A stretch of DNA of 64,000 nucleotides. Source: an uncultured Alphaproteobacteria bacterium (GTDB lineage: Bacteria > Pseudomonadota > Alphaproteobacteria > HIMB59 > GCA-002718135). Under the pieces are notes generated by a model that saw nothing but the letters and a program-made list of their open reading frames with translations, had not been told where the DNA came from and ran no database searches. This document shows positions 384 to 18,370 of this stretch, piece by piece; position 1 is the first letter of the stretch, and each line of letters opens with the position of its first letter. The stretch covers positions 1 through 64,000 of the forward strand of contig CACKRO010000005.1 in the NCBI GenBank assembly GCA_902602695.1, in the 5' to 3' direction. Both the position numbers and the translations under genes were made by a program.

Positions 384-1991
384 ATGAAAAAACTATATGT
401 GGTTATAGTTGCAGTGTTGGCTCATCTGATGTTCATTTCATCAGCTTCAGCTCAACCTACAAATAGTAACCAACTATCCGATCCTCGTGTTAGACAAGCT
501 TTATGTATGGCTATCGACATGAAAACAATCGGTGAAACATTATTTGAAGATCAAATCATAATGGCGGATAGTTTATTACCAAACGGTCCAATGAAGTCTC
601 CAAATCTACCTGATCTCAGTTACAATCCTGAAAAGGCTCGTCAACTGTTAGCAGAAGCAAATTGGGACTCTGATAGAGAACTTGACATGGTATTCTATTA
701 TGGAGATCAGCTGACTGCTGACTTCATGGCAGCAATTCAAGCATACTTTGCTGATGTTGGTGTTAAAATGACTTACCGTCTATTACAAGGTGATGTTGGT
801 GCACAACTTAATTCAGTTCCTGATGATGGTGTGAACGGACCAGCTGCTGTTGACTATGACTTAGGTTATGGTGCTCGTGCAGCAATTGCAATGCAAGAAT
901 ATTACAATACATTTAAAACAGGTCTAAACCCACAAACTCCTGGTGATCCAACAATGGATGCGCTTATTGAAAAAATTAATTCAAGCGCAGATCCAGAAGT
1001 TCTAAAACCTGCTTTCTTTGAAATACAAGAATATCAAATGCAGCAAGTTAACATTTGCCCATTATACTATCAAAAATTATTCATCTATGAGAGTAATAAA
1101 GTTGATAGAAATGGTGGATCTTATGGTAACGCTCAGTATAACTATAACTGGGGAATTACTGATTGGAATGTGAGTGGTGGCACTATGCAAACTAACACAG
1201 GTCCAGTTGAATTCTTTGAGCAACCTTGGTACAACCTAGGTTTATGGATACACAATAAAGTTGTTTTCGATAGACTTTTAGTTGCTGATGGTGCGTTACA
1301 ACCAGTTGGATGTTCAGCTTGTGAAAGTTATGAGTTATCAGCTGATGGTCTAAGTTTAACATTTAAACTAAAAGATGGTCTTACTTTCCATGATGGAAAC
1401 GATGTGACTGTTGAGGATGTAGCATGGAGTATTCGTACTGCTATGAAAGCACCTCAAATGCACGCTCTTATCGGAAACACAGTTGGTTCGATCAAAGGCG
1501 CTGATGCATTCAAAGATGGTTCAACTGATGATGTTTCAGGTATTAAATACAATATTGCAGACAGAGTTATTTCATTAGAGTTAACTAAAATTGACCCTAA
1601 CATCTTAACTACGTTTACTCAATTTGCTATTTTGCCTAAACATTTATTAGGCGATGTTGATCCTTTGAAATTCCAACAAAGTGATTTCTGGCAAATGCCA
1701 ATAGGATCTGGAGCATTTAAAATTACTGAAGTTAAAATGAACGACTTTGCAAAGTTCGAACCTTTTGACGGCTATCATGGTGGTAAAGCTGGTTTTGATA
1801 TCATTGCTTACCCAAGTTATGATGGTGATGGTAACTTAATTAAAAATGCTGCTGCAGGAAAAATGGACTACGGATTTACTAAAAACGTAGCTGATGTTGC
1901 TGCACTAGATGCTATGGACAACATGGGAACTAAAGCTGTTGATATCCCTTATACTCGTATGATGTGGATTATGCAGTATCCAAAACCATAG
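384..1991 (+). CDS. ABC transporter substrate-binding protein, SBP_bac_5 (Dpp/Opp) family, apparently circularly permuted
   Basis: Signal peptide MKKLYVVIVAVLAHLMFISSASA, then DPRVRQALCMAID...YNPEKARQLLAEANW (normally C-terminal half), then ELSADGLSLTFKLKDGLTFHDGNDVTVEDVAWSI...LPKHLLGD...PIGSGAFKI (normally N-terminal half). Followed by dppBCDF-like genes. Confidence 0.88.
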   Translation: MKKLYVVIVAVLAHLMFISSASAQPTNSNQLSDPRVRQALCMAIDMKTIGETLFEDQIIMADSLLPNGPMKSPNLPDLSYNPEKARQLLAEANWDSDRELDMVFYYGDQLTADFMAAIQAYFADVGVKMTYRLLQGDVGAQLNSVPDDGVNGPAAVDYDLGYGARAAIAMQEYYNTFKTGLNPQTPGDPTMDALIEKINSSADPEVLKPAFFEIQEYQMQQVNICPLYYQKLFIYESNKVDRNGGSYGNAQYNYNWGITDWNVSGGTMQTNTGPVEFFEQPWYNLGLWIHNKVVFDRLLVADGALQPVGCSACESYELSADGLSLTFKLKDGLTFHDGNDVTVEDVAWSIRTAMKAPQMHALIGNTVGSIKGADAFKDGSTDDVSGIKYNIADRVISLELTKIDPNILTTFTQFAILPKHLLGDVDPLKFQQSDFWQMPIGSGAFKITEVKMNDFAKFEPFDGYHGGKAGFDIIAYPSYDGDGNLIKNAAAGKMDYGFTKNVADVAALDAMDNMGTKAVDIPYTRMMWIMQYPKP

Positions 1992-2004: not shown

Positions 2005-2036
2005 TAAAGCTGAGGCATTTGCCTCAGCTTTTTATT
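2005..2036 (+). terminator. Rho-independent terminator-like hairpin between SBP and permease genes
   Basis: AAAGCTGAGGCA-ttt-GCCTCAGCTTTTTATTTT: near-perfect stem followed by a T-rich tract. Confidence 0.8.
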
Positions 2037-2055: not shown

Positions 2056-3021
2056 ATGACAACTTACATTGCTCAACGCTTGATTATTTTCTTTCCGATG
2101 CTTCTTGTCATAAGTTTTCTTGTTTATTCGGGATTAGAATTATCTCCCGGTGATGCTGTATCACATATGATTAGCCCAGAACTTGCTTCAACAATAACTG
2201 CTGAACAACTTGATGCAATGCGTGAAGCTTACGGTCTTAATCAAAGTTTCATAACAAGATATTGGATTTGGTTAACCAGCATGGTTCAAGGTGACATGGG
2301 TTACTCCATGGCTGGTGGAGTTGCTATTTCTGAAATAATGGTAAAAACAGTTCCTGCAACTTTGGAACTATCAATGGTTGCTTTATTTTTCTCAACTATT
2401 TTAGGTTGTTCTTTAGGTGTTATTAGTGCACTTAAAAGAGGCTCTGGAACTGATAATTCTCTTACAGTTGCTGGAATGGCTGGAGTCTCTATCCCAGAAT
2501 TTTTCTTTGGATTAGTTGCAATTCTGTTATTTGCCATTGAATTAAAATGGCTTCCTGTGGGAGGAAGACTCATGCCGCATTATGAAACAGTTTGGGATAG
2601 AATTCCAAATATTGTTCTCCCTTCCTTAGTATTAGCATTAATGATGACTGCTGGAGCGATGCGCTATGCACGTTCATCTATGTTAGATGTTCTTGCAAGA
2701 GAATTTATTACTACAGCTCGATCAAAAGGCATGCCAGAGTGGAGAGTAAACATCTTACATGGATTTAGAGTTGCTTTAACACCAGTCGTAGTTTTAATTG
2801 GCTTTCGTCTACCTTTACTTATTGGTGGATCAACTATCATAGAACAGGTTTACCAATGGCCTGGAATTGGTAGTATGTTTATTCGATCTGTTCGTGCATC
2901 AGATTATCCATTAGTTATGACAATATCTCTAATGTATGTATTTGTCGTTCTTACAGCAAGTTTAATTATAGATGTATTAACAGCATTAATTGACCCAAGA
3001 GTCAGATTGGGTAAGGAATAA
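2056..3021 (+). CDS. ABC transporter permease, DppB/OppB family
   Basis: Multi-TM protein; EFITTARSKGMPEWRVNILHGFRVALTPVV (EAA motif) and GGSTIIEQVYQWPGIG. Confidence 0.93.
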   Translation: MTTYIAQRLIIFFPMLLVISFLVYSGLELSPGDAVSHMISPELASTITAEQLDAMREAYGLNQSFITRYWIWLTSMVQGDMGYSMAGGVAISEIMVKTVPATLELSMVALFFSTILGCSLGVISALKRGSGTDNSLTVAGMAGVSIPEFFFGLVAILLFAIELKWLPVGGRLMPHYETVWDRIPNIVLPSLVLALMMTAGAMRYARSSMLDVLAREFITTARSKGMPEWRVNILHGFRVALTPVVVLIGFRLPLLIGGSTIIEQVYQWPGIGSMFIRSVRASDYPLVMTISLMYVFVVLTASLIIDVLTALIDPRVRLGKE

Positions 3022-3935
3022 TGGCAAAGACGTCTTTAGATAAAAAATTTGATCAAATTAAAAAACGTGAAGAAGAAAAATCATTTTCAACTAAAAAAAG
3101 AAGTAGAATAGTCAGTAAATTTTTAAATAACCGCCTAGCAGTTTTTGGTCTAATTATTTTTACTATAATTATTTTAGCCTCTTTATTTGCTCCATTACTG
3201 TCGCCATATGATCCTATGCGTGTTGATCTTCGCTCAATGAGGCAAGCGCCATCTTTTGATCATTGGTTTGGCACAGATAGTACAGGGCGTGATGTTTTTA
3301 CAAGAGTTTTATTTGGTGGAAGAGTCTCAATTTTTATTGGTTTAGGAAGCGCTATATTATCTGCAGTAGTTGGCATCGCCGTTGGTTGCTATGCAGGTTA
3401 TAAAGGTGGTTGGATAGATGTTATTGCTCTTAGAGTTTCTGAAATATTTATGTCATTTCCTCAAATAATATTAGTTTTATTGTTAGTATCAATAACGGGT
3501 CAAAGTTTATTTAATCTTATGGCAATATTTATTCTTACAGGATGGGGAGGAATGTATAGGCTTGCCAGAGCACGAATGTTGTCATTACGTGAGGAAGAAT
3601 ATGTTCAAGCTCTGAGAAGTTTTGGACTGTCGACCTTTACCATTTGCTACAAACATATGTTACCAAATGCTTTAAGTCCTATAATGGTTAATATAACTCT
3701 TTCGACGGCTATGTTTATTTTAACAGAAGCTGGTTTAAGTTTCCTTGGACTAGGAGTGCCATTAAATATTCCAACATGGGGAAATATTCTCAATGTTGCT
3801 CAAGATATTTTAATTTTACAAAACTATTGGTGGATGTGGGGACCGGTTGGATTAGTAATTTCAGTATTTGTACTATGTGTTAACTTTATAGGAGATGGTC
3901 TGAGAGATTCAACAGATCCATCACAACAAGGATAG
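3021..3935 (+). CDS. ABC transporter permease, DppC/OppC family
   Basis: HWFGTDSTGRDVFTRVLFGGRVSIFIG; EEYVQALRSFGLSTFTICYKHMLPNALSPIMV. Confidence 0.93.
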   Translation: MAKTSLDKKFDQIKKREEEKSFSTKKRSRIVSKFLNNRLAVFGLIIFTIIILASLFAPLLSPYDPMRVDLRSMRQAPSFDHWFGTDSTGRDVFTRVLFGGRVSIFIGLGSAILSAVVGIAVGCYAGYKGGWIDVIALRVSEIFMSFPQIILVLLLVSITGQSLFNLMAIFILTGWGGMYRLARARMLSLREEEYVQALRSFGLSTFTICYKHMLPNALSPIMVNITLSTAMFILTEAGLSFLGLGVPLNIPTWGNILNVAQDILILQNYWWMWGPVGLVISVFVLCVNFIGDGLRDSTDPSQQG

Positions 3936-3936
3936 T

Positions 3937-4965
3937 ATGACAGATAAAAATAATATAGCTCTCTCAGTTAAAAATCTCAAAACATTTTTCTACACTAATA
4001 ATAGATGTAATAAAGCAGTGAACGGCGTTTCCTTTGATGTTGAAAAAGGTAAAACACTTTGTATCGTTGGAGAAAGTGGATGCGGGAAAAGTGTGACTGC
4101 AGCAACTATTATGCAACTTCTTCCAACTTTATCAAGAATTGAAGAAGGTGAAATTATTTTTCGTAAGGATGATAAAACCGTCAATATTGAAAAGTTAGAA
4201 AAGAATGGAAAAGAAATGAGAAATATTAGAGGTTCTGATATTGCAATGATTTTTCAAGATCCAATGACTGCTTTAAATCCAGTTTATACAGTTGGTTTTC
4301 AAATAAGTGAAAATTTAAAATATCACACTAACCTTAATAGAAAAGAAATAAGAGAAAAAAGTATTTCTCTTTTGAATGATATGGGGATTCCTTTACCTGA
4401 AAAGAGAGTAGATGAATATCCACATAGTTATTCTGGTGGTATGAGACAAAGAGCTATGATTGCAATGGCGATGGCATGTAATCCAAAAATATTAATTGCC
4501 GATGAACCTACAACAGCTTTAGATGTTACAATTCAAGCTCAAATATTTGAATTGATGGAAAAACTTAAAGAGGAAAATGATACTGCAATCATTCTCATTA
4601 CCCATGATATGGGTGTTGTTGCTGAATTAGCCGACAATGTTGCAGTTATGTATATGGGAAATATTGTCGAAGCAGGTACTGCTGATGATGTTTTAAGACG
4701 GCCTACCCACCCGTATACAAAAGCATTATTAGAATCTGTTCCAGTTCTTGGTAGAGGAAAAAATCAAGATATAAATCCTATAAAAGGATCAACACCCGAC
4801 CCATACAACAGGCCTGTTGGATGCCAGTTTGCACCACGTTGTAATTGGCAAACAGAAAGTTGTGATGTGATGCCTGAAATTACACAAATAAATAAAACTC
4901 ATCAAATTAGATGCCATAAATACGAACAATTTTTTGAAAAGTATGATGAAAAAAGAAATTCTTAA
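3937..4965 (+). CDS. ABC transporter ATP-binding protein, DppD/OppD family
   Basis: Walker A GESGCGKS, signature YSGGMRQRAMIAMAMACNPKILIADEPTTALD, C-terminal GCQFAPRC oligopeptide extension. Confidence 0.95.
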   Translation: MTDKNNIALSVKNLKTFFYTNNRCNKAVNGVSFDVEKGKTLCIVGESGCGKSVTAATIMQLLPTLSRIEEGEIIFRKDDKTVNIEKLEKNGKEMRNIRGSDIAMIFQDPMTALNPVYTVGFQISENLKYHTNLNRKEIREKSISLLNDMGIPLPEKRVDEYPHSYSGGMRQRAMIAMAMACNPKILIADEPTTALDVTIQAQIFELMEKLKEENDTAIILITHDMGVVAELADNVAVMYMGNIVEAGTADDVLRRPTHPYTKALLESVPVLGRGKNQDINPIKGSTPDPYNRPVGCQFAPRCNWQTESCDVMPEITQINKTHQIRCHKYEQFFEKYDEKRNS

Positions 4966-5953
4966 ATTACGCGATGTAAAAGTCTACTTTCCTGTAAAAG
5001 CAGGAGTCTTCAATCGAACAGTCGGACATGTAATGGCAGTCGATGGTGTTGATTTAGATATTTATCGCGGTGAAGTATTAGGTCTGGCTGGTGAAAGTGG
5101 TTGTGGTAAAACTACTCTAGGTAAAGCAATCTTAAGATTGGTTGAGCCAACAAATGGTGAAGTTACATATGTTTCAAAGGAAGATGATGAAACAGAACTG
5201 ACGTCATTAGAAAAAAAAGATATGGATCCTTTTCGAAAAAAACTTCAGATTGTTTTTCAAGATCCACATTCCTCCCTTAATCCTTCTTTTACTATTTTTG
5301 GATCTCTTCAAGATCCATTAAAAAAATTTGGAGTTAATTCAAAAGAAGAAAGAAGAAAGATAATAGGCGATCTATTAGAAGCGGTTAATATGCGTAGAGA
5401 ATATATGGATCGATATCCTCATGAGTTTTCGGGAGGTCAAAGACAGCGAATTGGAATTGTAAGAGCTTTATGTTTAGATCCTGAATTGATTGTATGTGAT
5501 GAAGCCGTCAGTGCATTAGATGTTTCAATTCAGGCTCAAGTTTTACAATTGTTAATGCAGCTTAAAAAAGATAATAATTTAACTTATCTATTTATTACTC
5601 ATGATCTAAGTGTGACAGAATATTTATGTGATAGAATTGCTGTTATGTATTTAGGAAGAATTGTAGAACTTTGTGACTCTGAAGATCTTTATAAAAATAC
5701 TCTTCATCCCTACTCTGAAGCTTTAATATCAGCAATACCAGTCGCAGACCTTGATAAGAAAACTAAGAGGATTGTTTTAGAGGGAGATGTACCAAGCCCA
5801 GTAAATCCACCTAAAGGATGTCCTTTCCATCCTCGTTGCCCTAAAGCAAAAGATGTTTGTAAAACTGAAGTACCAACATTAAAAAAATATTCTACAAATG
5901 GTAATGAGCATTATGCATCTTGCCATTTGATCGATTTACCTGAAATAAGTTAG
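4943..5953 (+). CDS. ABC transporter ATP-binding protein, DppF/OppF family
   Basis: Walker A GESGCGKT, FSGGQRQRIGIVRALCLDPELIVCDEAVSALD, GCPFHPRCP. Start taken at ATG 4943 (ORF track uses TTG 4934). Confidence 0.93.
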   Translation: MMKKEILKLRDVKVYFPVKAGVFNRTVGHVMAVDGVDLDIYRGEVLGLAGESGCGKTTLGKAILRLVEPTNGEVTYVSKEDDETELTSLEKKDMDPFRKKLQIVFQDPHSSLNPSFTIFGSLQDPLKKFGVNSKEERRKIIGDLLEAVNMRREYMDRYPHEFSGGQRQRIGIVRALCLDPELIVCDEAVSALDVSIQAQVLQLLMQLKKDNNLTYLFITHDLSVTEYLCDRIAVMYLGRIVELCDSEDLYKNTLHPYSEALISAIPVADLDKKTKRIVLEGDVPSPVNPPKGCPFHPRCPKAKDVCKTEVPTLKKYSTNGNEHYASCHLIDLPEIS

Positions 5954-5955
5954 TC

Positions 5956-6885
5956 ATGACTAAATACGATCCAAAAGATCTTAACGGTGTTATGCCTGCA
6001 ATGATTACATCCATTAATAAAGATGAAAGTATTAATAAGGAAGGTTTAAGAAAAATAATAAATCATTTGATAGCTGAAAAAGTTAATGGCTTGTACGTAA
6101 CTGGTAGTACAGGTGAGACTTTTTTAATGTCACCAGATGAAAAAAAAGAAGTTCTTGATATTATTGTTGAAGAAGTAAATGGCAGAGTTCCTGTTATTGC
6201 ACATGTTGGGTCTATTGGAACTAAAATTACAACTGATTTAGCAAAATATGCCACTAATGCTGGAGTTGACGCATTATCAGCATTGCCACCTTTCTATTAT
6301 AATTTTTCCAATGAAGAAATTTATAACTATTATAGTGACATAGCTCAATCCTCACATTTACCAATTATTATATATAACATTAGTCATGCAAACTTGATGG
6401 ACATTGATATGTTAAAAAGATTAGCAGCTATAGATAATATTAAAGGGGTAAAATACACAGCAGCAACACATTTTAACTTTGAAAAAATAAAAAAAGAAAT
6501 TGGAGCATATTTTAAAATTTATTCTGGAATGGATGAAATGGCTATTTCTGGTTTGATATCAGGTGCTGATGGAATGATTGGATCATTTTATAATTTAATG
6601 CCAGAAATGTTTGTAGGAATTTTTAAAAATATGAAAAATGGTAATGTTGCAGAAGCAAAAAAATTACAAGACAAAGTCAATATGATCATATTGTATGCTT
6701 TGAAAAAATCAGGGTATCCGTTTATTAAAATGGGATTAAGCTGGATGGGAATTGATGCGGGATATGTAAGAAAACCTTTTTCAAGTATTGTCAATACAGA
6801 GATAGAAAAGGAAATAAAAAATGATTTGAAAAAATTAATTTCAGAAAATGATCTTGAAGAAATAAAATTTTTAAAAGCATTATAA
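5956..6885 (+). CDS. nanA: N-acetylneuraminate lyase-like, DHDPS/NAL family
   Basis: DHDPS-family YVTGSTGE motif, Schiff-base lysine context IKGVKYTA, and adjacency to nanE- and nanK-like genes. Confidence 0.8.
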   Translation: MTKYDPKDLNGVMPAMITSINKDESINKEGLRKIINHLIAEKVNGLYVTGSTGETFLMSPDEKKEVLDIIVEEVNGRVPVIAHVGSIGTKITTDLAKYATNAGVDALSALPPFYYNFSNEEIYNYYSDIAQSSHLPIIIYNISHANLMDIDMLKRLAAIDNIKGVKYTAATHFNFEKIKKEIGAYFKIYSGMDEMAISGLISGADGMIGSFYNLMPEMFVGIFKNMKNGNVAEAKKLQDKVNMIILYALKKSGYPFIKMGLSWMGIDAGYVRKPFSSIVNTEIEKEIKNDLKKLISENDLEEIKFLKAL

Positions 6886-6893
6886 TCAACCTT

Positions 6894-7568
6894 GTGAAAA
6901 AAAATATTTTAAAAAAATTAAAAAATAAAATTATTGTATCATGCCAGCCTAATGAGGGTGGTCCTCAGGATAAGACGTCTATTATTGTCTCTATGGCAAA
7001 AGCAGCAATAATAGGAGGTTGTGGGGGAGTACGAATAGAAGGAGAAAAAAATCTCCGTGCCGTTAAAAAAAATATCTCAGTACCAATAATAGGAATAATA
7101 AAAAACGACTTAACAAATTACAAAGTCAGGATCACTCCTCTCTTAAAAGATGTAGAGAAAATAATTAATAGTGGTGCAGATATAATAGCTTATGATGCCA
7201 CAAATAGGAAAAGGCCTTTTCCAACAAAAGAAATTATTTTAAAAATTAAAAAAGCAAATCGTTTAGCTATGGCAGATTGCTCAAATATAGATGATGCTAA
7301 AAATGCTATTTTAGAGGGTGCGGATATTATTGGGACAACACTTGCCGGCTATGTTGGTAAAAAAGTGAAAGATACGGATAAACCAAATATAAAATTGGTT
7401 AAAGAATTTAAAAAACTTAATTGCTTTGTAATGGCTGAAGGGCGTTACAACTCTCCAGAGCTTGCAAAGAAAGCTATACAAGCAGGAGCAGATGCAGTTA
7501 CAATTGGAAGTGCTATTACGCGTATTGATAATATTACGAGTTGGTTTGTAAAAAAAATTAAAAATTAA
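6894..7568 (+). CDS. nanE: N-acetylmannosamine-6-phosphate 2-epimerase
   Basis: CQPNEGGPQDKTSIIVSMAKAAIIGGCGGVRIEG; DIIAYDATNRKRP; MAEGRYNSPELAKKAIQAGADAVTIGSAITR. GTG start. Confidence 0.87.
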   Translation: MKKNILKKLKNKIIVSCQPNEGGPQDKTSIIVSMAKAAIIGGCGGVRIEGEKNLRAVKKNISVPIIGIIKNDLTNYKVRITPLLKDVEKIINSGADIIAYDATNRKRPFPTKEIILKIKKANRLAMADCSNIDDAKNAILEGADIIGTTLAGYVGKKVKDTDKPNIKLVKEFKKLNCFVMAEGRYNSPELAKKAIQAGADAVTIGSAITRIDNITSWFVKKIKN

Positions 7569-7569
7569 A

Positions 7570-8451
7570 ATGAATAAAAAAATATTTAACAAATCAGGTA
7601 TCGCAATTGATTTTGGAGCAACTAAGATATCAGTATCTCATATAATTAAAGGAAAGTTTAAAAAAACTATAACTAAACCCACTTCAATAAGTAAAATAGG
7701 AAAAAATTACATTCAGCAAATTGAAAAAAATATAAAAATAGTAAATCAATTAAAATTAAAAAAAATAGGTATAGCTATTACTGGTAGAGTTGATCAATCA
7801 GGAAATTGGTACTCAGTAAATAAAGAAAATTTAGGAACTTTTAAAATACCTCTTAAAAAGCTTGTAGAGAAAAAATTTAAAACACCAACTACAATTATTA
7901 ATGATGCTACTGCTGCAGCTTTTGGTGAAGCAATGTATGGAAAAGGCTATAAATATAAACGCGTTGGATATATTACAATTTCAAGTGGTATCGGGGTGGG
8001 TATAGTTTTAAACAATAAACCCTTTCTTTCTGAGACTGGTCTAGCTGGACATTTAGGTTTTACAACCTCAACTCTGGGAACAACAAAATGTGGGAGTGGA
8101 AGAATTGGTACTTTTGAAAGTATCGCTTCTGGTAAAGCAATGAGTAAAATTGCTAGACAAAAAGGTTACAAAAATATCACAGCTAAGGAAATTTTTAAGC
8201 TTAGTTTAAATAATAAAAAATGGGCGAGAGAAATAATTGATTTAAGTGCAAAATCTATCTCAGAATTATGTGCTAATTTAAAAGCTATTTTTGATATAGA
8301 TATAATTATTCTTGGTGGAAGTATTGGAATGGCGAAGGGTTATGTAGAACTTGTTAAAAAAAATTTGGCTCAAGAACCTAAATTATTTCATGTAAAAGTA
8401 GTGAAGTCATCTCTTGGTGTGAAAGCTGCAAAAATGGGTGTTTTGATTTAA
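7570..8451 (+). CDS. nanK: ROK-family sugar kinase, putative N-acetylmannosamine kinase (NanK-like)
   Basis: IDFGATKIS, INDATAAAFGEA, ISSGIGVGIV, GHLGF; located after nanA/nanE. Confidence 0.75.
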   Translation: MNKKIFNKSGIAIDFGATKISVSHIIKGKFKKTITKPTSISKIGKNYIQQIEKNIKIVNQLKLKKIGIAITGRVDQSGNWYSVNKENLGTFKIPLKKLVEKKFKTPTTIINDATAAAFGEAMYGKGYKYKRVGYITISSGIGVGIVLNNKPFLSETGLAGHLGFTTSTLGTTKCGSGRIGTFESIASGKAMSKIARQKGYKNITAKEIFKLSLNNKKWAREIIDLSAKSISELCANLKAIFDIDIIILGGSIGMAKGYVELVKKNLAQEPKLFHVKVVKSSLGVKAAKMGVLI

Positions 8452-8499: not shown

Positions 8500-9801
8500 A
8501 TGGGCAAAGGACAAAAATTATATTCAAAAGCAAAACAGATTGTTGCTGGTGGAAATATGCTTTTGTCAAAAAGACCTGAAATGTTTTTACCCGAACATTG
8601 GCCTGCTTATTTTAGTAAAACAAAAGGCTGTGAGGTTTGGGATCTTGATGGAAATAAATATATTGATACCTTAATGATGCCAGGAACTAATTCACTTGGA
8701 TATAGCCATCCAGAAGTTGATGAAGCTGTGAAGGAAACAATTAGTAATGGTAATATGTCTTCTCTTAATGCTCCAGAAGAAGTTGAACTTACTGAGAGGT
8801 TAGTTGAATTACATCCATGGGCTGATATGGCAAGATTTGCAAGATCTGGTGGTGAAGCTAATTCAGTTGCCATTCGTCTTTCAAGAGCTGCATCTGGAAA
8901 AGACAATGTAGCTTTTTGCGGATATCATGGTTGGCATGACTGGTACTTAGCTTCAAATTTATCTGACTCAAAAGGGTTAGATGGTCACTTACTACCCGGT
9001 TTAGATCCTCATGGTGTACCACAAAATCTAAAAGGAAGTGTATACCCCTTTGAATATAATAATTTTGATAAACTAGAAAACTTAGTCAAAACAAAAAATA
9101 TAGGCGTTATCAAAATGGAAGTTTACCGAAATAAAGAACCAGAAAATAATTTTTTACACCGCGTTAGAAAATTAGCTAATGATAATAATATTGTTTTAGT
9201 TTTTGATGAATGTACATCAGGATTTAGAAAAAATTATGGTGGCTTACATAAGCTATATGATGTTGAGCCTGACGTCGCTATGTTTGGTAAAGCACTTGGT
9301 AACGGATATGCTGTGACTGCTGTTCTTGGAAAAAGAGATGTAATGCAAGCAGCTGAAAAATCTTTTATAAGTAGTACTTTTTGGACTGAAAGAATTGGAT
9401 CTAGTGCTGGACTAGCTACACTAAAAGTTATGGATAACGAAAAGTCTTGGGAAAGGATTTCAAAAACTGGTGAATATGTAAATAGTGAATGGATAAAATT
9501 ATCAAAAGAATTTGATCTTCCAATTACTATTAGTGGTTTAGCGGCACTCACAACCTTTTCATTTAAAAGTGAAAAAGCATTAGCTTATAAAACATTTATT
9601 ACTCAAGAAATGCTTAAAAAAGGCTATCTTGCTGCAACTGCAGTCTATGTTTGTACTGCACACACAAAAGAAATTATTAATGGTTATATTGAAAATATAC
9701 GCCCAATCTTTCAGACAATAAAAGAGTGTGAAGATGGAAAAGATATTATGGATTTATTAGAAGGTCCTATTGCACATAATGGTTTTAAAAGACTAAACTA
9801 A
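8500..9801 (+). CDS. Class III aminotransferase, glutamate-1-semialdehyde aminomutase-like
   Basis: CEVWDLDGNKYID, ARSGGEANSVAIRLSRAA, FCGYHGWHDWY, PLP-lysine context AMFGKALGNGYAV. Confidence 0.85.
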   Translation: MGKGQKLYSKAKQIVAGGNMLLSKRPEMFLPEHWPAYFSKTKGCEVWDLDGNKYIDTLMMPGTNSLGYSHPEVDEAVKETISNGNMSSLNAPEEVELTERLVELHPWADMARFARSGGEANSVAIRLSRAASGKDNVAFCGYHGWHDWYLASNLSDSKGLDGHLLPGLDPHGVPQNLKGSVYPFEYNNFDKLENLVKTKNIGVIKMEVYRNKEPENNFLHRVRKLANDNNIVLVFDECTSGFRKNYGGLHKLYDVEPDVAMFGKALGNGYAVTAVLGKRDVMQAAEKSFISSTFWTERIGSSAGLATLKVMDNEKSWERISKTGEYVNSEWIKLSKEFDLPITISGLAALTTFSFKSEKALAYKTFITQEMLKKGYLAATAVYVCTAHTKEIINGYIENIRPIFQTIKECEDGKDIMDLLEGPIAHNGFKRLN

Positions 9802-11285
9802 TCTAAAGAAATAACTTTATTCCCAATTTTTTTGAAGGGCAATCTTTTTAAGTTACTTGTACATAGACCTTGACTATCAATATAGAAACTCTGAGAAGCA
9901 ATTGGATCGTAAGCATCCTTATGAGACACAGCTGCTTTGATTATTATTAGTTTTGCATCTTTAGGATTAATCCCTTGCGAAATTAGTTGTCCCAAATCCA
10001 TTGGTGGTGTTTTAATTGAAGTAAGCAACAATGTTAATTGATCATTTTTCAAAACAGCTGAGGGACCCATATTAATTTTTGTTCCCATCATTGAAGCTAA
10101 GTGAGATTTTTTATTTTCAAGCTCAAAGGCTCCATCAGAAATTTTTTCCAATTTTGCTTTTATTAAGATAGGCTTACCATGAAATAGATCAAACTTTGCC
10201 CCAATATTTAATTCGATTTCATCATTCATCTGAGCTTTGTGACAAGTATCTGCTGCTTCGGGATCATTTATAATTGCAACAATGCCAGTATGATTAGTTT
10301 GTAATAAGCGATTTAATAAATCAGTTGCATCGCCTGGTGTTCCACCTCCAATATTATCAGCTGGTTCAATTAATAATATTGGTTTTTTAATATCAGTAAT
10401 TTTATCAATTGCTTTTAAAGCTTCATCTAATGAATTTTCTTTTGGATAACCATTCTTAATCTTTGCTTCTAATATAGTTACTAAGTTATCGAGGTATTTT
10501 TTTGCCTGACTAGTATTTCCTCTTGTACAACAATTTATACTAAAACCACATTCCGGAATATCTGCATATGAATATCCTGCCATAACATTGATACAAATAA
10601 TCTCTGGATCGTTTTTCTCTATCTTTAAAGCTTCTTCTAAAATTGTTTTCATCGGATCATTTGCCGTTCCAACACCAGTTGGCGGGAGAATATAATTTGT
10701 ACCTAAATGTATTTGTTCTACCTTTGGATCTAAAAAAAGATCATTTAAAATTGATGCAGCTTTTATTGCCGTTTCTCTTGAATCGCTGTGGGGGTTTTTT
10801 CTATACGCATAGACACACGTACTATTCTTAATCATACTTTCAGAAACATTAGCATGTAAATCTAAAACTGCTACAACTGGAATAGAAATATTTTCTTTAG
10901 ATAAAAAACTTTGAATATCCCTAAGAAAATCACCCTCAAAATCATCGTGATTTTTACTTACCATAGCTCCATGAAGAATTAAAAAAATTGCATCTATATT
11001 GTGACTAGAGAATTTTAATTTTTCAAAAAAATTTTTTTTAAAATAATTTTCTGATTCTTCATCTACTGTACCTGATGGCCTGGCTGACATTTGAATGCCT
11101 GGAATAATATTCCATTTTTTCTGAAAAGCATATTCTATGAAACCATCTGTTGGAGATCCATTGCCAATGTTTTCATTAATTATTTCTTTATCATGATAAA
11201 TAATGAAATCTTTTAAGGTAGTTGGCTCACCTAAAAATGTATGTGTTTCATGATATATGCCTGAAAGAAAAATATTTTTAGACAT
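9798..11285 (-). CDS. M81 family metallopeptidase / MlrC-like protein
   Basis: IFLSGIYHETHTF, HGAMVSKNHDDFEGDFL, LDLHANVS, YRKNPHSDSRETA, PADNIGGGTPGDAT: MlrC hallmarks. Confidence 0.88.
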   Translation of the reverse strand: MSKNIFLSGIYHETHTFLGEPTTLKDFIIYHDKEIINENIGNGSPTDGFIEYAFQKKWNIIPGIQMSARPSGTVDEESENYFKKNFFEKLKFSSHNIDAIFLILHGAMVSKNHDDFEGDFLRDIQSFLSKENISIPVVAVLDLHANVSESMIKNSTCVYAYRKNPHSDSRETAIKAASILNDLFLDPKVEQIHLGTNYILPPTGVGTANDPMKTILEEALKIEKNDPEIICINVMAGYSYADIPECGFSINCCTRGNTSQAKKYLDNLVTILEAKIKNGYPKENSLDEALKAIDKITDIKKPILLIEPADNIGGGTPGDATDLLNRLLQTNHTGIVAIINDPEAADTCHKAQMNDEIELNIGAKFDLFHGKPILIKAKLEKISDGAFELENKKSHLASMMGTKINMGPSAVLKNDQLTLLLTSIKTPPMDLGQLISQGINPKDAKLIIIKAAVSHKDAYDPIASQSFYIDSQGLCTSNLKRLPFKKIGNKVISLD

Positions 11286-12195
11286 TAAGTATTTCTTCTA
11301 ACTCAATATTTGCTTGTTCTTTTATTTTTTCTACATCTTCTGCGGTTGCACCGTCATATGGCCAAAGAACTTTTTCCGATACTGGGCCCCAGCCACCAAC
11401 AGATGCAAGTAACTTATCTAAACCAGTATTCGAAAGCTTGCTAGCAAAGGGTAAAATATATTGTTTCATAAAGTGTAGTACTTTTGCTTCTAATGCTTTT
11501 GCTTTTTCATAGTCTTTTTCAATTAGATCCCAAATTTTAACAGCGCCATTTGGACTTAAACATGCAACATTAGAATAGGATCCATTTGCTCCTATGGGTT
11601 TTCCATATACAACGGTATGTCCAGGTACAAACACAGAAAAGTCCTCTAATAATTCTCTTCTTTTTGAATACCATTGCTCATCACCACCTACACATTTAAT
11701 TCCTACAAGATTTGGAACTGATTTATTTAATAAACTAATCTCTTCAAGAGAAAGAAGGACTTTTGCATGAGGTGGATTATATAAAATCATATATACATCT
11801 TCGACCACTTCTTGCATTCCTAATATAAAATTCTTTGACTCATTAAATGTTGGAGGCCACCAGTCAGGAAGAGTTATTTGAAATCCATTTGGTTTTAGGC
11901 TGACCATACGCTTTGCTCTTTCACGGCATATTCTTGGATTAGTATGACTTAATCCAAGTTGAAATTTTTTTTTCTTCTTTAAAGCAATAGATGAAACTAT
12001 TTCGGATAGCCTATCAAACTCAGTTTCTGTTTGATTATGACATTCGGCAGCAGTTCCGTTTGTATAGATTCCATGAATATTAGAATCACATAAAATATGA
12101 ATTTGTTCTTCAAATGCAGGCCAATCAATTTGATTATTATTTATAGGTAAAAGAATTGTTCCCCAAATTCCCTTTGGCTTCTCTAGTTGTTTCAT
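11278..12195 (-). CDS. Dihydrodipicolinate synthase family protein
   Basis: Second DHDPS-family protein in window; IHGIYTNGTAAECHNQTETEF, VYMILYNPPHAK, VGIKCVGG (Schiff-base Lys). Confidence 0.8.
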   Translation of the reverse strand: MKQLEKPKGIWGTILLPINNNQIDWPAFEEQIHILCDSNIHGIYTNGTAAECHNQTETEFDRLSEIVSSIALKKKKKFQLGLSHTNPRICRERAKRMVSLKPNGFQITLPDWWPPTFNESKNFILGMQEVVEDVYMILYNPPHAKVLLSLEEISLLNKSVPNLVGIKCVGGDEQWYSKRRELLEDFSVFVPGHTVVYGKPIGANGSYSNVACLSPNGAVKIWDLIEKDYEKAKALEAKVLHFMKQYILPFASKLSNTGLDKLLASVGGWGPVSEKVLWPYDGATAEDVEKIKEQANIELEEILNV

Positions 12196-12196
12196 T

Positions 12197-13117
12197 TTAA
12201 TGCTTATGTAATTGATCTTCTGCTTGCTTAATTATGTCTACGCCTACTCTATCACTCCATCCTTGAATTAACCTTTTAGTTACAGGCCCTACTTTTCCAT
12301 CAGCAATAGGCATTCCATTAAATTTTGTTGCAGGCATAATTGAATATGGCGTACTAGTCATAAACATTTCATCTGCAGTAGCTAAATCATAAGGTTGGAT
12401 TACAGCTTCAATTACTTCTATATCTAAGGAACGAGCTATTTCCATAGTTGAATTTCTTGTAAGTCCCTCTAAACAATTTGCAGTGGTTGGTGTGATTAAT
12501 TTTCCATCTTTGATCATAAAAATATTTCCACCTTTATTCTCAGCAACATTTCCATCAATATCAAGAATGACACTTTGAGCATCAGGATCAACCAATTTAG
12601 CTTCAATTTCAGCTAATGTATAAAATAGTCTACTTCTATTCTTAATTCTTGCATCTAATGATTGTGAGGGCACCATTCTTGTTGGAGGAGTTACTGCATG
12701 ACAACCTTTTGTATAAAATGGTGCCCATAAAACTAGATTCATAGGCTGGGTGTAAATCATAACAGTTGGTTTGGAGACTTGTAAAGCTGGGTTTCCTCCA
12801 GTTATTGAATGTCCTCGAGAAATATTATGGACAAGCCAGCAATCCTCATTTGCCTTATATTCATCTTTATTAATCTCTAATAAATCGAGACTTACTTTTT
12901 TCATTTCCTCCATTGTCATTTGAGGATCAATGCGTGTCAGTTTAAAAGACTTATAAAGTCTCTCCAAATGATCGTCTAATTTAAATGGTACGTGATTAAA
13001 AGTTCTTGTTGATTCAGTAACTGTATCACCTAAAAGAACAGCACTATCAAAAATAGAAATTTTGGCCTCTATTTCAGGTACAATTTCACCAGAAATATAC
13101 ACTTTTCTGTTATGCAT
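12197..13117 (-). CDS. Class IV aminotransferase (branched-chain/D-amino acid aminotransferase-like)
   Basis: SIFDSAVLLGDTVTESTRTF, RIKNRSRLFYTLAE, NVAENKGGNIFMIKDGKLITP, CLEGLTRNSTMEIA. Confidence 0.88.
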   Translation of the reverse strand: MHNRKVYISGEIVPEIEAKISIFDSAVLLGDTVTESTRTFNHVPFKLDDHLERLYKSFKLTRIDPQMTMEEMKKVSLDLLEINKDEYKANEDCWLVHNISRGHSITGGNPALQVSKPTVMIYTQPMNLVLWAPFYTKGCHAVTPPTRMVPSQSLDARIKNRSRLFYTLAEIEAKLVDPDAQSVILDIDGNVAENKGGNIFMIKDGKLITPTTANCLEGLTRNSTMEIARSLDIEVIEAVIQPYDLATADEMFMTSTPYSIMPATKFNGMPIADGKVGPVTKRLIQGWSDRVGVDIIKQAEDQLHKH

Positions 13118-13119
13118 TT

Positions 13120-13899
13120 TTATAATTTATTTTTTGATTTTAATTCTGCTTTTAATTGTTCTTGTTCCATTTTCTCTTTCTGTTTGTCGTGTTTTGCAGA
13201 AACACCATGATAAACAAAACCAAAAGCTCTTCGTGATCTAGTTTTGGATTTATTGGGATCAGCAAAATGAATAATTTTAGCATGGTGCATTAAAAACATT
13301 CCAGCTTTACCTTCAAACTTTACGGTATTTTTTTGGTCCTCTTCAGTTCCAAAATCAGTAACCCCTTTTGAAAATCCTAAAATTTCTGATTTGCCATGTG
13401 GTCTATATCCTTCATATTTATGTGAACCTTTGACATAATGAATACATCCATTTTCATCATCAACATCTTCTAAAGCAAGCCATCCTGTTACGGCCTTATC
13501 ATTATTTAAATTAAAATAATAGCCATCTTGATGAGGTGGTGTTGGATTACTTTTACCTGGTGGTTTATTAAAATATTCCATAGCTCTAGGAATCACTTCC
13601 TCACCTAAAGCGTTCGCAGCTAATTCTTTTATTTTACTATAGTGAAATAGATCATGAAAGAAAGCGTCGTATTCTTCTAACTTTTGCATTTGCATTAAAG
13701 TATCTTTGTTCTCTTTATCAACGTAATACACTTCCCCTTCTTTCATTTTAGGAACACAGTCTTTAATATATCTATCAAACTCATTATTTATAAGCTCCAT
13801 ATCAGACTTCGAAAAAAGTTCAGGAATATGATTATAACCATTCTCATCATAAATTTTTTTTAAATCACTTAATTCAGGGGTGTTGGTATTAAAATTCAT
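13120..13899 (-). CDS. Phytanoyl-CoA dioxygenase (PhyH) family protein, copy 1
   Basis: Fe(II) motif HQDGYYF with distal His (HHAKIIHFADPNKS); NGCIHYVKGSHK. Confidence 0.9.
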   Translation of the reverse strand: MNFNTNTPELSDLKKIYDENGYNHIPELFSKSDMELINNEFDRYIKDCVPKMKEGEVYYVDKENKDTLMQMQKLEEYDAFFHDLFHYSKIKELAANALGEEVIPRAMEYFNKPPGKSNPTPPHQDGYYFNLNNDKAVTGWLALEDVDDENGCIHYVKGSHKYEGYRPHGKSEILGFSKGVTDFGTEEDQKNTVKFEGKAGMFLMHHAKIIHFADPNKSKTRSRRAFGFVYHGVSAKHDKQKEKMEQEQLKAELKSKNKL

Positions 13900-14660
13900 A
13901 TTAAATTTTTCTCCTTCATTTCTTTTCGAAGTTTTTCTTGATAAGCATCATGTGCTTCTTGATTTATTTCTGCACTTTCTCCATAATAAATAAATCCCAG
14001 TGCTTTTCTAGTTCTTGTTTGAGATTTATTTCCTTCAGCCCAGTGTATTGTTTTAGCATTGTGAATTAAAAAAGTTCCTGGCTCTCCAGGAAAAAAGACT
14101 GTATTTTTTTTATCTTCCTCATTTCCAAAATCAGTAATACCTTGAGAAAAACCTAACACATTTGATCTACCATGTGGCCTATATTCAGATTTATGAGAAC
14201 CTTTTACATAATGAATACATCCATTTTCTTCATCTACTTTTTCTAGAGCCAACCAACAAGTAACGGCATTGTGTTTTTTTAACATAAAGTAATAACCATC
14301 CTGATGTGGTGGTGTTGGCTTTCCAATTCCTGGTGGTTTATTAAAAAATTGTAAATTTTTGGGCTCAGCTTTTTCTCGTAAAACTATTTCTGCAACTTCT
14401 CTAATAGGGGAATTTTCAATTAATTCTTTAAAGTAATCATCATAAGTAAACATTTGCTGTAGTTGCTTTATAGAAGTTTTGTCATCTTTATTTTCATAAA
14501 ATATATGATGATCAGGTACATTAGGCGTAACTTCTTTTATGTATCTAGATAATTCAATCTTAATCTCTTCTATTTTATCAATTGAAAATAATGGGTTTAT
14601 TGCAATATAGCCGTTGTCATCAAATTTAGATTGAAGATTTTGATCATTAAAAGTTGACAT
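13896..14660 (-). CDS. Phytanoyl-CoA dioxygenase (PhyH) family protein, copy 2 (tandem paralog)
   Basis: HQDGYYFMLKKHNAVTCWLALEKVDEENGCIHYVKGSHKSEYRPHG; strongly similar to the neighbouring ORF. Confidence 0.9.
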   Translation of the reverse strand: MSTFNDQNLQSKFDDNGYIAINPLFSIDKIEEIKIELSRYIKEVTPNVPDHHIFYENKDDKTSIKQLQQMFTYDDYFKELIENSPIREVAEIVLREKAEPKNLQFFNKPPGIGKPTPPHQDGYYFMLKKHNAVTCWLALEKVDEENGCIHYVKGSHKSEYRPHGRSNVLGFSQGITDFGNEEDKKNTVFFPGEPGTFLIHNAKTIHWAEGNKSQTRTRKALGFIYYGESAEINQEAHDAYQEKLRKEMKEKNLI

Positions 14661-14756
14661 AATTTAATAAAATTATGGTAACTGAAATTAAAAAGATAGC
14701 TAGTAAAAATTAATTATTTACCATATTTTCTTAATTAAATTATAAATCATAAGAGA

Positions 14757-15599
14757 ATGCAAAAAAAATATAAAAGAGTTTTTTCTATAAACAATGATCT
14801 AGGATATAGAAATTATACTGTCAGAGATTTAATAAATTTAAAAGGTAAGAAAAAGCTAACGCAAGTAAGAGTTACAACAGTGGAAGAAGCTGCAGCCGCT
14901 GAAGAAGCAGGAATTGATTTATTATTAACTGGACCAGGAAAAGATTTTCCAAATATTAGAAAAGCTGCTTCAAAAACTTTTATAACTGTTGGTGTACCTT
15001 TTATTGAGAACCCATCAAAAAGAGAAGCTACAAAAAAAGCATTCGAAATTATTGAGGCTGGTGCTGATTCACTAATGTGTCAAAATTGGAATCTTGAATG
15101 GATGGCACATTTAAGTAAATTTAGAATTCCCTTTCAAAGTCATGTTGGTTTTATTCCAAGAAGAACAACATGGATAGGTGGCATTAGATCTTTTGGAAAG
15201 ACAGCAATTGAAGCTGCAGAATTATTTAGAGATATAAAGGATATTGAGAAAACTGGTGCATGGGGCATAGAAGTAGAACTCGTTCCAGAAAATATTTTAG
15301 AAGTTATTACAAAGCACACATCACTTGTTACTATTTCAATTGGTTCGGGAATAGCTGCGGATGCTCAATTTTTATTTGCTGAAGATATATTAGGACAGAG
15401 TAAAATAAGTTTTCCAAGACATGCAAAAAAATATAAAAATTTTGATAAAATATTAAGTGATATTCAAAAAGAAAGAATTGATGCTTTCAAAAAGTATAAA
15501 ACAGAAGTTCAAAAAAATAAATTTCCAACAAAAAAACATACTGTTTCAATTAAAAAAATAGAATTAAATAAATTTAGAAAGTTTCTGCAACAACATTAA
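14757..15599 (+). CDS. PanB-like (3-methyl-2-oxobutanoate hydroxymethyltransferase-like / PEP mutase superfamily) protein, copy 1
   Basis: HVGFIPRRTTWIGGIRSFGKTAIEAAELFRDIKDIEKTGAWGIEVELVPENILEVITKHTSLVTISIGSG resembles the C-terminal part of PanB; N-terminal metal motif not conserved. Confidence 0.7.
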   Translation: MQKKYKRVFSINNDLGYRNYTVRDLINLKGKKKLTQVRVTTVEEAAAAEEAGIDLLLTGPGKDFPNIRKAASKTFITVGVPFIENPSKREATKKAFEIIEAGADSLMCQNWNLEWMAHLSKFRIPFQSHVGFIPRRTTWIGGIRSFGKTAIEAAELFRDIKDIEKTGAWGIEVELVPENILEVITKHTSLVTISIGSGIAADAQFLFAEDILGQSKISFPRHAKKYKNFDKILSDIQKERIDAFKKYKTEVQKNKFPTKKHTVSIKKIELNKFRKFLQQH

Positions 15600-15601
15600 T
15601 T

Positions 15602-16447
15602 ATGAAAAATAAATTCAAAAAAGTTTACTCTCTTGCACATGAAGCTGGTTATAGAAACTATACCGTGAAAGATTTAATAAATTTAAAAGGTAAGAAAAAA
15701 TTAACACAGATAAATGTTGTATCGCCTGAAGAAGCTGCAGCTGCAGAAGCTGCGGGCATAGATATGATTATTTGTGGGGTAGATCAGTTAAAAGAAATTC
15801 GTGAAGCTGCACCCAATACATTTTTAACGTGTGGAATAAAATATACTGAGCATGCTTCCAAAGAAAGTATGATGAAGAAGGTATTTGAATTAATAGAAAT
15901 TGGTATAGACTCTATACACACCAATTCTTGGAATATAAATTTTATTAAATATTTAAGTGATTTTAATATCCCTTTTCAAGGGCACGTAGGTTTTGTTCCA
16001 ATGAAATCAACGTGGACAGGGGGTGTGAAACCAGTTGGGAAAAGTTCAGCTGAAGCTATTAAAGTTTATCATGATATAAAAGAATTAGAAAAAATTGGTG
16101 CTTGGGCTATAGAGGTTGAATGTGTACCGGAGGATGTTTTAAAAGAAATAACAAAAGACACCAAAGCTTTGACTATTTCCATAGGATCAGGCAGATATGC
16201 AGATATTCAATTTTTGTTTGGTGAAGATATTTTGGGATATCACTTCAATTCAACTACAACGCCTAGACATGCAAAAAAATATAAAGATTTTAATAAGACA
16301 TACGAAAAGTTACAAAAGGATAGGATAGATGCTTTTAAGGAATATCAGAAGGATGTAGTAAATAAGAAATTTCCATCAAAAAGTAATGTTGTTTTTGCCG
16401 AAAAAAAAGAACTAGAAAAATTTAAAAAATTAATGAAAAAAATCTAA
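15602..16447 (+). CDS. PanB-like protein, copy 2 (tandem paralog)
   Basis: HVGFVPMKSTWTGGVKPVGKSSAEAIKVYHDIKELEKIGAWAIEVECVPEDVLKEIT...ISIGSG; similar to copy 1 along its length. Confidence 0.7.
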   Translation: MKNKFKKVYSLAHEAGYRNYTVKDLINLKGKKKLTQINVVSPEEAAAAEAAGIDMIICGVDQLKEIREAAPNTFLTCGIKYTEHASKESMMKKVFELIEIGIDSIHTNSWNINFIKYLSDFNIPFQGHVGFVPMKSTWTGGVKPVGKSSAEAIKVYHDIKELEKIGAWAIEVECVPEDVLKEITKDTKALTISIGSGRYADIQFLFGEDILGYHFNSTTTPRHAKKYKDFNKTYEKLQKDRIDAFKEYQKDVVNKKFPSKSNVVFAEKKELEKFKKLMKKI

Positions 16448-17260
16448 ATGGAAATTAGTAAATTAGTTAGAAGATTAAATGATAATGAAATATCACAGTA
16501 TGAAGATAAGGGTTATATCAAAGGTCTGCCTGTATTTTCTCAAGATGGTGTTAAAGATCTTCAAAAACTTTTTTTAGATTTAAGTAATAGACTGCCCGCA
16601 GACGTTAACATAAATAAAACTAATATGTGGCATAAAGCGAGTAAAAAATTTTATGATTTAGCACATACGCCGGCTATTCTTGATTATGTGGAGGATCTTT
16701 TAGGGCAAAATTTTTTCCTTTGGGGTGGACAATTTTTTTACAAAGCAGCTAAGAGTAAAGGTGTTGTTCCTTGGCATCAAGATTCTCAATATTGGCCTTT
16801 AAATCCATCAAACTCTGTTACAGTTTGGTTAGCAGTATATGATACAGATAAATCTAATTCAGCAATGAAAATAGTATCGGAAAGTCATAAAACAAAAAAA
16901 TTTTTACATAAAGTTAATGAAGATAAAAATTATGATTTAAACCAAGAAGTATCTAATGATCAAATTGATAAAGAAAAAATAGTATATATGAATTTAAAAG
17001 CTGGTGAAATTTCTCTTCATTCAGATGCTCTTTTACATGGTTCTGATGCAAACCATTCAAATAATCCTAGATGTGGAATTACTTTAAGATATTCTCCTTC
17101 AAATGTTAAAGCAGATTTATCAGAGTGGCCTTTTTTTTCTGTTCAAATAGCTAGAGGTGAAACAAATCACTATTTAAATCCTATTGCTCCTATGCCGAGA
17201 GGTGAAGCAACCCCTGTTAAGGGCTTTCAATTTCATCATGAATTTGAAAGTGAGTGGTGA
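16448..17260 (+). CDS. Phytanoyl-CoA dioxygenase (PhyH) family protein, third copy (divergent)
   Basis: WHQDSQYWPL (HxD), MKIVSESHK, HSDALLHGSDANHSNNPRCGITLRY. Confidence 0.85.
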   Translation: MEISKLVRRLNDNEISQYEDKGYIKGLPVFSQDGVKDLQKLFLDLSNRLPADVNINKTNMWHKASKKFYDLAHTPAILDYVEDLLGQNFFLWGGQFFYKAAKSKGVVPWHQDSQYWPLNPSNSVTVWLAVYDTDKSNSAMKIVSESHKTKKFLHKVNEDKNYDLNQEVSNDQIDKEKIVYMNLKAGEISLHSDALLHGSDANHSNNPRCGITLRYSPSNVKADLSEWPFFSVQIARGETNHYLNPIAPMPRGEATPVKGFQFHHEFESEW

Positions 17261-17290: not shown

Positions 17291-18370
17291 ATGAAAATAA
17301 TTGATGAAATAATTCTATACGAAAACCCTGATCCTTTACTCGTTAGTAAACAAGGTATTTTTCCGGGTATAGTAAAATTACAGGATAATTCCTTAATTGC
17401 ATTATTTACTATTGGGCAAGCTTTTGATTCTGCTGATCAAAGAACATTTGTTTCAAAAAGTTTTGATGATGGAAGAAGTTGGTCTAAACCAAAACCTTTA
17501 CATAATCATATATATAAAAATAAGGAAGAATCAGAATCTCTTAAACCCCTATTATTACAAAATAATAAATTGCTGGCAATAGGTTATGCTTTTGTAAGAC
17601 CAGATAGTTTAACACCAATTGTTAATCCTAATACATTTGAAATACTGCCGCTCAATAATAAAATAAGTATTTCTAATGATAATGGTGAAAGTTGGTCTAT
17701 GCCAAAAAATTTTAACGTCAATGAAACACCACTTGAAATATCAGGTCCGTGTATTCAATTAAGATCAGGTAGAATATTAGGAGCAGCGCCACCTTTCCAT
17801 TTAAAAGAGTCAGATCATTCAGGATGGATAATTTATAGTGATGATGAAGGTGAAAATTGGAGTAAACTATCTGAATTTTATAAATCCAAGGAAGGACATA
17901 TTTCAACTTGGGAATGTCGATTATGTGAAACGAACAGCAAAATTATTGTTATTTTTTGGGCTTATGACAATAAAAATAAAAAAAATCTTAGCAACCATGT
18001 TGTAATTTCCGATGATGCTGGAAAAACATTTAATTCTGTAATTGATACTAAAATTAGAGGACAAGCGTCTAATGTAATGTTTTATAAAGATGATATAATT
18101 TTTACCATTCATTGTCACAGAGAAAAACCAACAGGATTAATTCTAAGAAAAGTTGATGTAAGAGATAATAAGTTTTCAATTTTAGACGAAATCAATTTGT
18201 TTTCTAAAGATGGTTTATCAAGTGATGATACTAACATAAGTAAACAGTTTGGCTCACTTAAGTTTGGTCAACCATCAATACTTCTTTTAAATAATAATGA
18301 ATTACTAATTTGTTTTTGGTGCATTCATGATAACCAACATATTGTTAAAACATATATCGTAAATATATAG
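17291..18370 (+). CDS. Asp-box/BNR sialidase-family protein (putative exo-alpha-sialidase), no evident signal peptide
   Basis: Asp boxes SFDDGRSW, SNDNGESW, SDDEGENW and a degenerate SDDAGKTF; N-terminus MKIIDEIILYENPD is not a signal peptide. Confidence 0.78.
   Translation: MKIIDEIILYENPDPLLVSKQGIFPGIVKLQDNSLIALFTIGQAFDSADQRTFVSKSFDDGRSWSKPKPLHNHIYKNKEESESLKPLLLQNNKLLAIGYAFVRPDSLTPIVNPNTFEILPLNNKISISNDNGESWSMPKNFNVNETPLEISGPCIQLRSGRILGAAPPFHLKESDHSGWIIYSDDEGENWSKLSEFYKSKEGHISTWECRLCETNSKIIVIFWAYDNKNKKNLSNHVVISDDAGKTFNSVIDTKIRGQASNVMFYKDDIIFTIHCHREKPTGLILRKVDVRDNKFSILDEINLFSKDGLSSDDTNISKQFGSLKFGQPSILLLNNNELLICFWCIHDNQHIVKTYIVNI

Follow-up and report, generated by a model that had tools for sequence, protein, structure and literature searches.

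A natural, very probably functional circular permutation in an Opp/Dpp-type substrate-binding protein of one marine alphaproteobacterial genus

Our analysis of a 64,000 nucleotide stretch of DNA from an uncultured alphaproteobacterium (the window) identified a gene at 384-1991 whose product is very probably a functional periplasmic binding protein, exported through Sec and serving an ABC importer of the Opp/Dpp type, built on a circularly permuted chain. Its segments homologous to a canonical SBP_bac_5 (PF00496) protein follow each other in swapped order, and the old termini are joined. Its ORF is preceded by a ribosome-binding-site-like AGGAGG motif just 5′ of the start codon, and the interval from the stop of the upstream gene (about 250) to 384 contains no other listed ORF. 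The sequence-only reading that drew attention to this gene had reported a 535 aa product and nothing coding between 252 and 384; these details, and the sequences and coordinates it quoted, were correct on re-reading. The segments of the gene are as follows.

384..1991, + strand: permuted SBP_bac_5 (cluster C) substrate-binding protein, ATG start, 535 aa
384..452, + strand: signal peptide, aa 1-23 (MKKLYVVIVAVLAHLMFISSASA), read from the sequence
453..1052, + strand: main part of lobe 2, aa 24-223 (canonical C-terminal block), lobe assigned from the AccA limits
1053..1070, + strand: crossover B, where the chain would pass from lobe 2 into lobe 1 (approximate), aa 224-229 (ICPLYY), placed from AccA hinge 490-493
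1071..1175, + strand: tail of lobe 1 that is C-terminal in canonical members and here leads into the new join, aa 230-264
1176..1940, + strand: remainder of lobe 1 from the canonical mature N-terminus (GGT...) onwards, with ESYELSADGLSLTFKLKDGLTFHDG inside it, aa 265-519
1941..1952, + strand: crossover A, where the chain would pass from lobe 1 into lobe 2 (approximate), aa 520-523, placed from AccA hinge 281-284
1953..1988, + strand: C-terminal strand TRMMWIMQYPKP, aa 524-535, the canonical first strand of lobe 2, now a free C-terminus

The signal peptide, which is likely to be cleaved after A-S-A and appears to be without a lipobox, is fused directly 5′ of the canonical C-terminal block. Residues 24-28 (QPTNS) lie between the likely cut and the first clearly homologous residue, as homology to the block begins at about N29 (SDPRVRQAL). 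At the other end of the protein, the YPKP that closes the C-terminal strand is invariant among the orthologues, and the new-join region (aa 230-264) shows in places the highest variation among them.

The PF00496 match to this protein (E 1.2e-48, 166.6 bits against a cutoff of 32.4) falls into two stretches, with profile positions 209-326 matching aa 27-136 (nt 462-791) ahead of profile positions 7-204, which match aa 313-527; the search of the whole genome gave this second stretch as profile 7-207 at nt 1320-1973. The swapped order is far beyond chance. The earlier reading had proposed that the halves were exchanged and had named a single collinear full-length match among the results that would speak against it; no such match occurred, and collinear order along the chain was regained only after un-permuting. 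Profile-profile comparison (hhalign) of the orthologue profile with a profile of 15 canonical relatives gave two blocks for the protein as encoded, aa 273-529 against template positions 40-281 (probability 99.8) and aa 27-241 against positions 284-497 (probability 99.7). When the chain was un-permuted in silico, these became a single block of 454 columns with a probability of 100, and the score of the rotated protein (395) was close to the sum of the two half scores. In an alignment to DppA the seam made by joining P535 to N29 is gap-free, which leaves room for little or no loss or duplication of residues at the cut. This seam, together with the nearly identical ends of the orthologues, bears out the proposal that the native termini were joined and the chain opened at the canonical junction. 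Identity to canonical relatives is ~20-33%.

The same genome encodes five other PF00496 proteins, each with one collinear match (~1-366), and only the protein at 384-1991 is split. Separate half profiles resolved both halves in 79 alphaproteobacterial relatives with canonical order and in none with permuted order. Across the phylum, the PF00496 matches listed for 60 genomes (56 with matches) were all single stretches spanning most of the profile. When 386 genomes from the class and 399 from the phylum were searched with profiles, no permuted relative turned up outside the genus; these searches score the best few candidates per genome, and divergent permuted relatives could escape them. The viral contigs scanned held no permuted relative and only four canonical ones; the matches in plasmid records were all below 60% identity, and the best of them comes as separate pieces. 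As far as seen, the permuted order appears confined to one genus.

Within that genus the arrangement recurs. A pattern scan of GTDB genomes identified 28 loci encoding relatives, mostly full length and 80-100% identical, mainly in single-cell genomes of marine Alphaproteobacteria; two of the records are titled Pelagibacteraceae, and the name SAR11/Pelagibacter that we use for the lineage rests on such titles of related-locus records. The permuted gene is present in 26 of the 162 genomes of the order, all belonging to the genus of the window and none to the other six genera. All 21 distinct full-length orthologues, from this one genus, are permuted, with lengths of 535-536 aa and nearly identical ends, and they share a common operon, divergent loci included. 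Canonical order in close relatives, which would have counted against the earlier reading, was thus seen in none of the 21. Whole-gene pairwise dN/dS is ~0.05-0.13 and is low in both halves; in some pairs the signal peptide and the join region are the most variable parts. The gene is under purifying selection. Near-identical copies (94-97% identity) also occur in two MAGs, one labelled Euryarchaeota (ARS96; L020) and the other Gammaproteobacteria (L033), and because of this identity both are most likely mis-binned SAR11 contigs.

The solved structure of AccA gives the anatomy against which the cut can be placed: lobe 1 comprises residues 29-280 and 494-521, lobe 2 comprises residues 285-489, and the hinge segments lie between (PMC4526662). 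A phmmer alignment to AccA matched query fragment 4-179 to chain positions 192-367 with no net gaps. If chain position 1 of AccA is residue 29, hinge A would fall at about aa 520-523 of the permuted protein, a mapping that a tag at the other end of AccA would shift by about six residues. The new termini would then fall within lobe 2, some 7-15 residues on from hinge A, between the first strand of that lobe and the helix beginning near DPRVRQAL, so that both inter-lobe crossovers appear to be kept. This mapping, onto DppA as well as AccA, agrees with the earlier proposal that the new termini opened beside an inter-lobe crossover. Both of the old termini belong to lobe 1 and are probably joined head to tail near aa 243-265 with no added domain. 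Homology to the PF00496 profile makes the two-lobe cluster C fold very likely. AlphaFold2 models were of low confidence, both from 12 orthologues (pLDDT 45.8) and with the addition of eight fragments of four canonical proteins from viral contigs (pLDDT 40.0); MAFFT overlays the two kinds of half-fragment on each other unless few are supplied.

We favour a model in which the chain runs from the signal peptide through the canonical C-terminal block, which supplies most of lobe 2 together with the tail of lobe 1, and across the join into the N-terminal block. The old C- and N-termini would meet head to tail inside lobe 1, leaving lobe 2's first strand at the very end of the chain. The resulting two-lobe fold would be canonical with both crossovers covalent, while the strand of about 12 residues past hinge A would dock into the lobe-2 sheet without covalent continuation. 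A protein of this kind would act as a normal Venus-flytrap receptor feeding the OppBCDF transporter.

The genetic context fits such a role, as the gene for an exported protein (the export signal being read from sequence) is followed directly by Opp/Dpp permease and ATPase partners and by a set of nan-like genes.

2006..2031, + strand: terminator-like hairpin with a T-rich tail, in the gap between the SBP gene and oppB
2056..3021, + strand: OppB/DppB-type permease
3021..3935, + strand: OppC/DppC-type permease (NCBIfam Opp4C, 335.7 bits against a cutoff of 350)
3937..4965, + strand: OppD-type ATPase
4934..5953, + strand: OppF-type ATPase
5956..6885, + strand: NanA, N-acetylneuraminate lyase family (NF003164 above cutoff)
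6894..7568, + strand: NanE, N-acetylmannosamine-6-phosphate 2-epimerase (NCBIfam cutoff passed)
7570..8451, + strand: NanK-like ROK kinase (best model below its cutoff)
8500..9801, + strand: class III aminotransferase (HemL-like), kept in divergent permuted loci too

Four of the five canonical paralogues in the genome (two on contig C3 and one each on C10 and C13) lie no more than a few kilobases from a permease match, which makes the permuted protein the natural partner of the adjacent transporter. For the fifth, on contig C6, that search found no nearby permease match, and this paralogue could in principle serve the OppBCDF transporter too. The hairpin after the SBP gene fits production of the binding protein in excess of the permease. 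Such sites occur at chance frequency in a hairpin scan, so the support for this element is its conservation: it is kept in five related loci, where the stem changes are compensatory, and in two of the loci (L024 and L025) the stem is longer (GTACTGAGGC...GCCTCAGTAC). Beyond the operon, a companion set that is also kept in related loci occupies 9798-17260 of the window and includes M81/MlrC, DapA-like, class IV aminotransferase and PhyH dioxygenase proteins, as well as two PanB-like proteins whose scores fall well short of the PanB cutoffs. Further along, 38622-41450 on the - strand encodes a protein of 942 aa that combines an autotransporter beta-domain with bacterial Ig-like repeats and is unexpected in a small SAR11-type genome.

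Could the swapped order have arisen during sequencing? The assembly of the window is incomplete (73.9%, 35 contigs), and single-cell amplification can generate chimaeras, so a rearranged contig deserves mention. Yet the same order, lengths, seams and neighbours recur across independent genomes, in 21 distinct proteins that are as little as 80% identical, and the permuted gene is under purifying selection; this recurrence under constraint excludes an assembly or amplification artefact, to which we attach next to no probability. It is also highly improbable that the gene is a decaying or non-functional remnant. Its patchy presence in the order would suit such decay, but the frame is open over its full length, dN/dS is low in both halves, the motifs and ends are conserved, the operon is intact and the hairpin after the gene has been retained.

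Permutation by duplication is the usual route to circular permutants and agrees with the exact seams seen here: an ordinary gene would have been tandem-duplicated and fused, and the outer ends trimmed. No tandem-duplicated intermediate was found among the genomes searched. Alternatively, the gene could be a chimaera, in which a lobe-2 block from one SBP gene was fused in swapped order to a lobe-1 block from another. The scores of the two halves against canonical relatives are negatively correlated, and their top matches differ, as two parents would lead one to expect, and the low identities make parentage hard to fix; however, because the relatives were chosen by total score, the negative correlation is partly a selection effect. 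Moreover, separate trees of the two halves both place the protein near the same canonical group (L094, L102, L143 and L172), and this shared position, although weakly supported (0.60 and 0.70), favours a single parent gene. The distance correlation between the halves (0.45) is inside the range of ordinary proteins (0.43-0.66), and the seams fit without loss. We therefore regard a chimaeric origin as improbable and permutation of one gene by duplication as the likeliest route. It is somewhat more conceivable, though still doubtful, that the permutation changes function, with the free lobe-2 strand loosening hinge A and shifting the balance of open and closed states or the release of ligand, an adaptation, for instance, to substrates at very low concentration. 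The position of the cut so close to hinge A and its retention in the lineage are compatible with this idea. Against it, a permuted glucose-binding protein, TpMglB-2, retained both glucose binding and the ligand-induced conformational change, and its authors saw no evident mechanical advantage (PMC4990184).

The genes around the transporter offer some indication of what the permuted receptor may bind. The NanA, NanE and NanK context, together with BNR sialidase-like genes, suggests a nonulosonate or a related amino-sugar acid as the putative ligand, which NanA may process. The solved structures nearest to the operon NanA are N-acetylneuraminate lyases, and the sialidase-like genes, with BNR_2 repeats, lie at 17291-18370 (+ strand) and 19713-20828 (- strand), ~15 kb downstream. 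A BNR_2 sialidase-like protein is also encoded in a related incomplete locus (L202:2173-3294), and such proteins are unexpected in streamlined SAR11. NanE and NanK are often part of the operon among the orthologues, but at the divergent loci L022, L025 and L030, where NanA and the aminotransferase are kept, nanE and nanK are outside it, with nanE elsewhere or not seen. The PanB-like, PhyH and M81 genes near the operon fit a plain sialic acid pathway poorly. We give a sialic-acid-like ligand about an even chance. Two further observations concern the nan genes of the genus. Four loci (L196, L197, L198 and L199) encode a second NanE-like protein, 51-56% identical to that of the window, which in these other genomes belongs to an amino-sugar cluster that also encodes SBP_bac_1, a kinase, amidohydrolase and SIS proteins. 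In addition, the NanA orthologue at L023:11576-12502 has GMDQM where the other five aligned have GMDEM, a position that adjoins a conserved aspartate.

SBP_bac_5 proteins form a large receptor family of bacterial nutrient uptake and were collinear in every other case examined. A fixed permutation in abundant ocean bacteria would indicate that the fold tolerates new termini beside the hinge, and its confinement to one lineage makes the permutation-by-duplication route testable. The protein represents a natural test of whether chain order matters in such receptors, and nature here supplies a template for sensors built from permuted binding proteins. A warning comes with it, as ordinary annotation splits or half-aligns permuted receptors.

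Comparison with known systems makes the protein a member of PF00496 by homology, but one without the collinear order of all other members examined. DppA, AppA and AccA (cluster C) resemble it in near-whole-length homology once it is un-permuted, in their OppBCDF-type partners and in their similar size, and differ in that the permuted protein has a swapped chain, new termini inside lobe 2 just behind its first strand, and its old termini joined. SatA, the receptor of the sialic acid ABC transporter SatABCD of Haemophilus ducreyi (PMC11364026; structures 5z99, 5yyb and 5za4), is likewise of the SBP_bac_5 type, and the adjoining nanA, nanE and nanK genes make similar ligands possible for the permuted protein. 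However, SatA is itself in canonical order and matches only at ~33 bits, whereas the nearest solved relatives are 8upi (81.8 bits) and AppA (79.7 bits), and the ligand of the permuted protein is proposed from context. Among the open-licence papers covered, the only natural permuted ABC binding protein was TpMglB-2 (Tp0684) of Treponema pallidum, with none in cluster C, and we consider it likely that the present protein is the first natural circular permutation in that cluster, a functional variant fixed in one lineage of SAR11, in which a strand of lobe 2 would be kept in place beyond the hinge by non-covalent contacts only. TpMglB-2 is likewise an ABC binding protein that is circularly permuted in nature, with the permutation conserved in its lineage (PMC4990184). 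It belongs to another class of periplasmic binding protein (cluster B/type I), to which our protein does not belong, as PF00496 and its solved relatives match instead. Lastly, the permutation of TpMglB-2 adds a fourth inter-lobe crossover (PMC4990184), whereas in the cluster C protein described here the two usual crossovers appear to have been kept.
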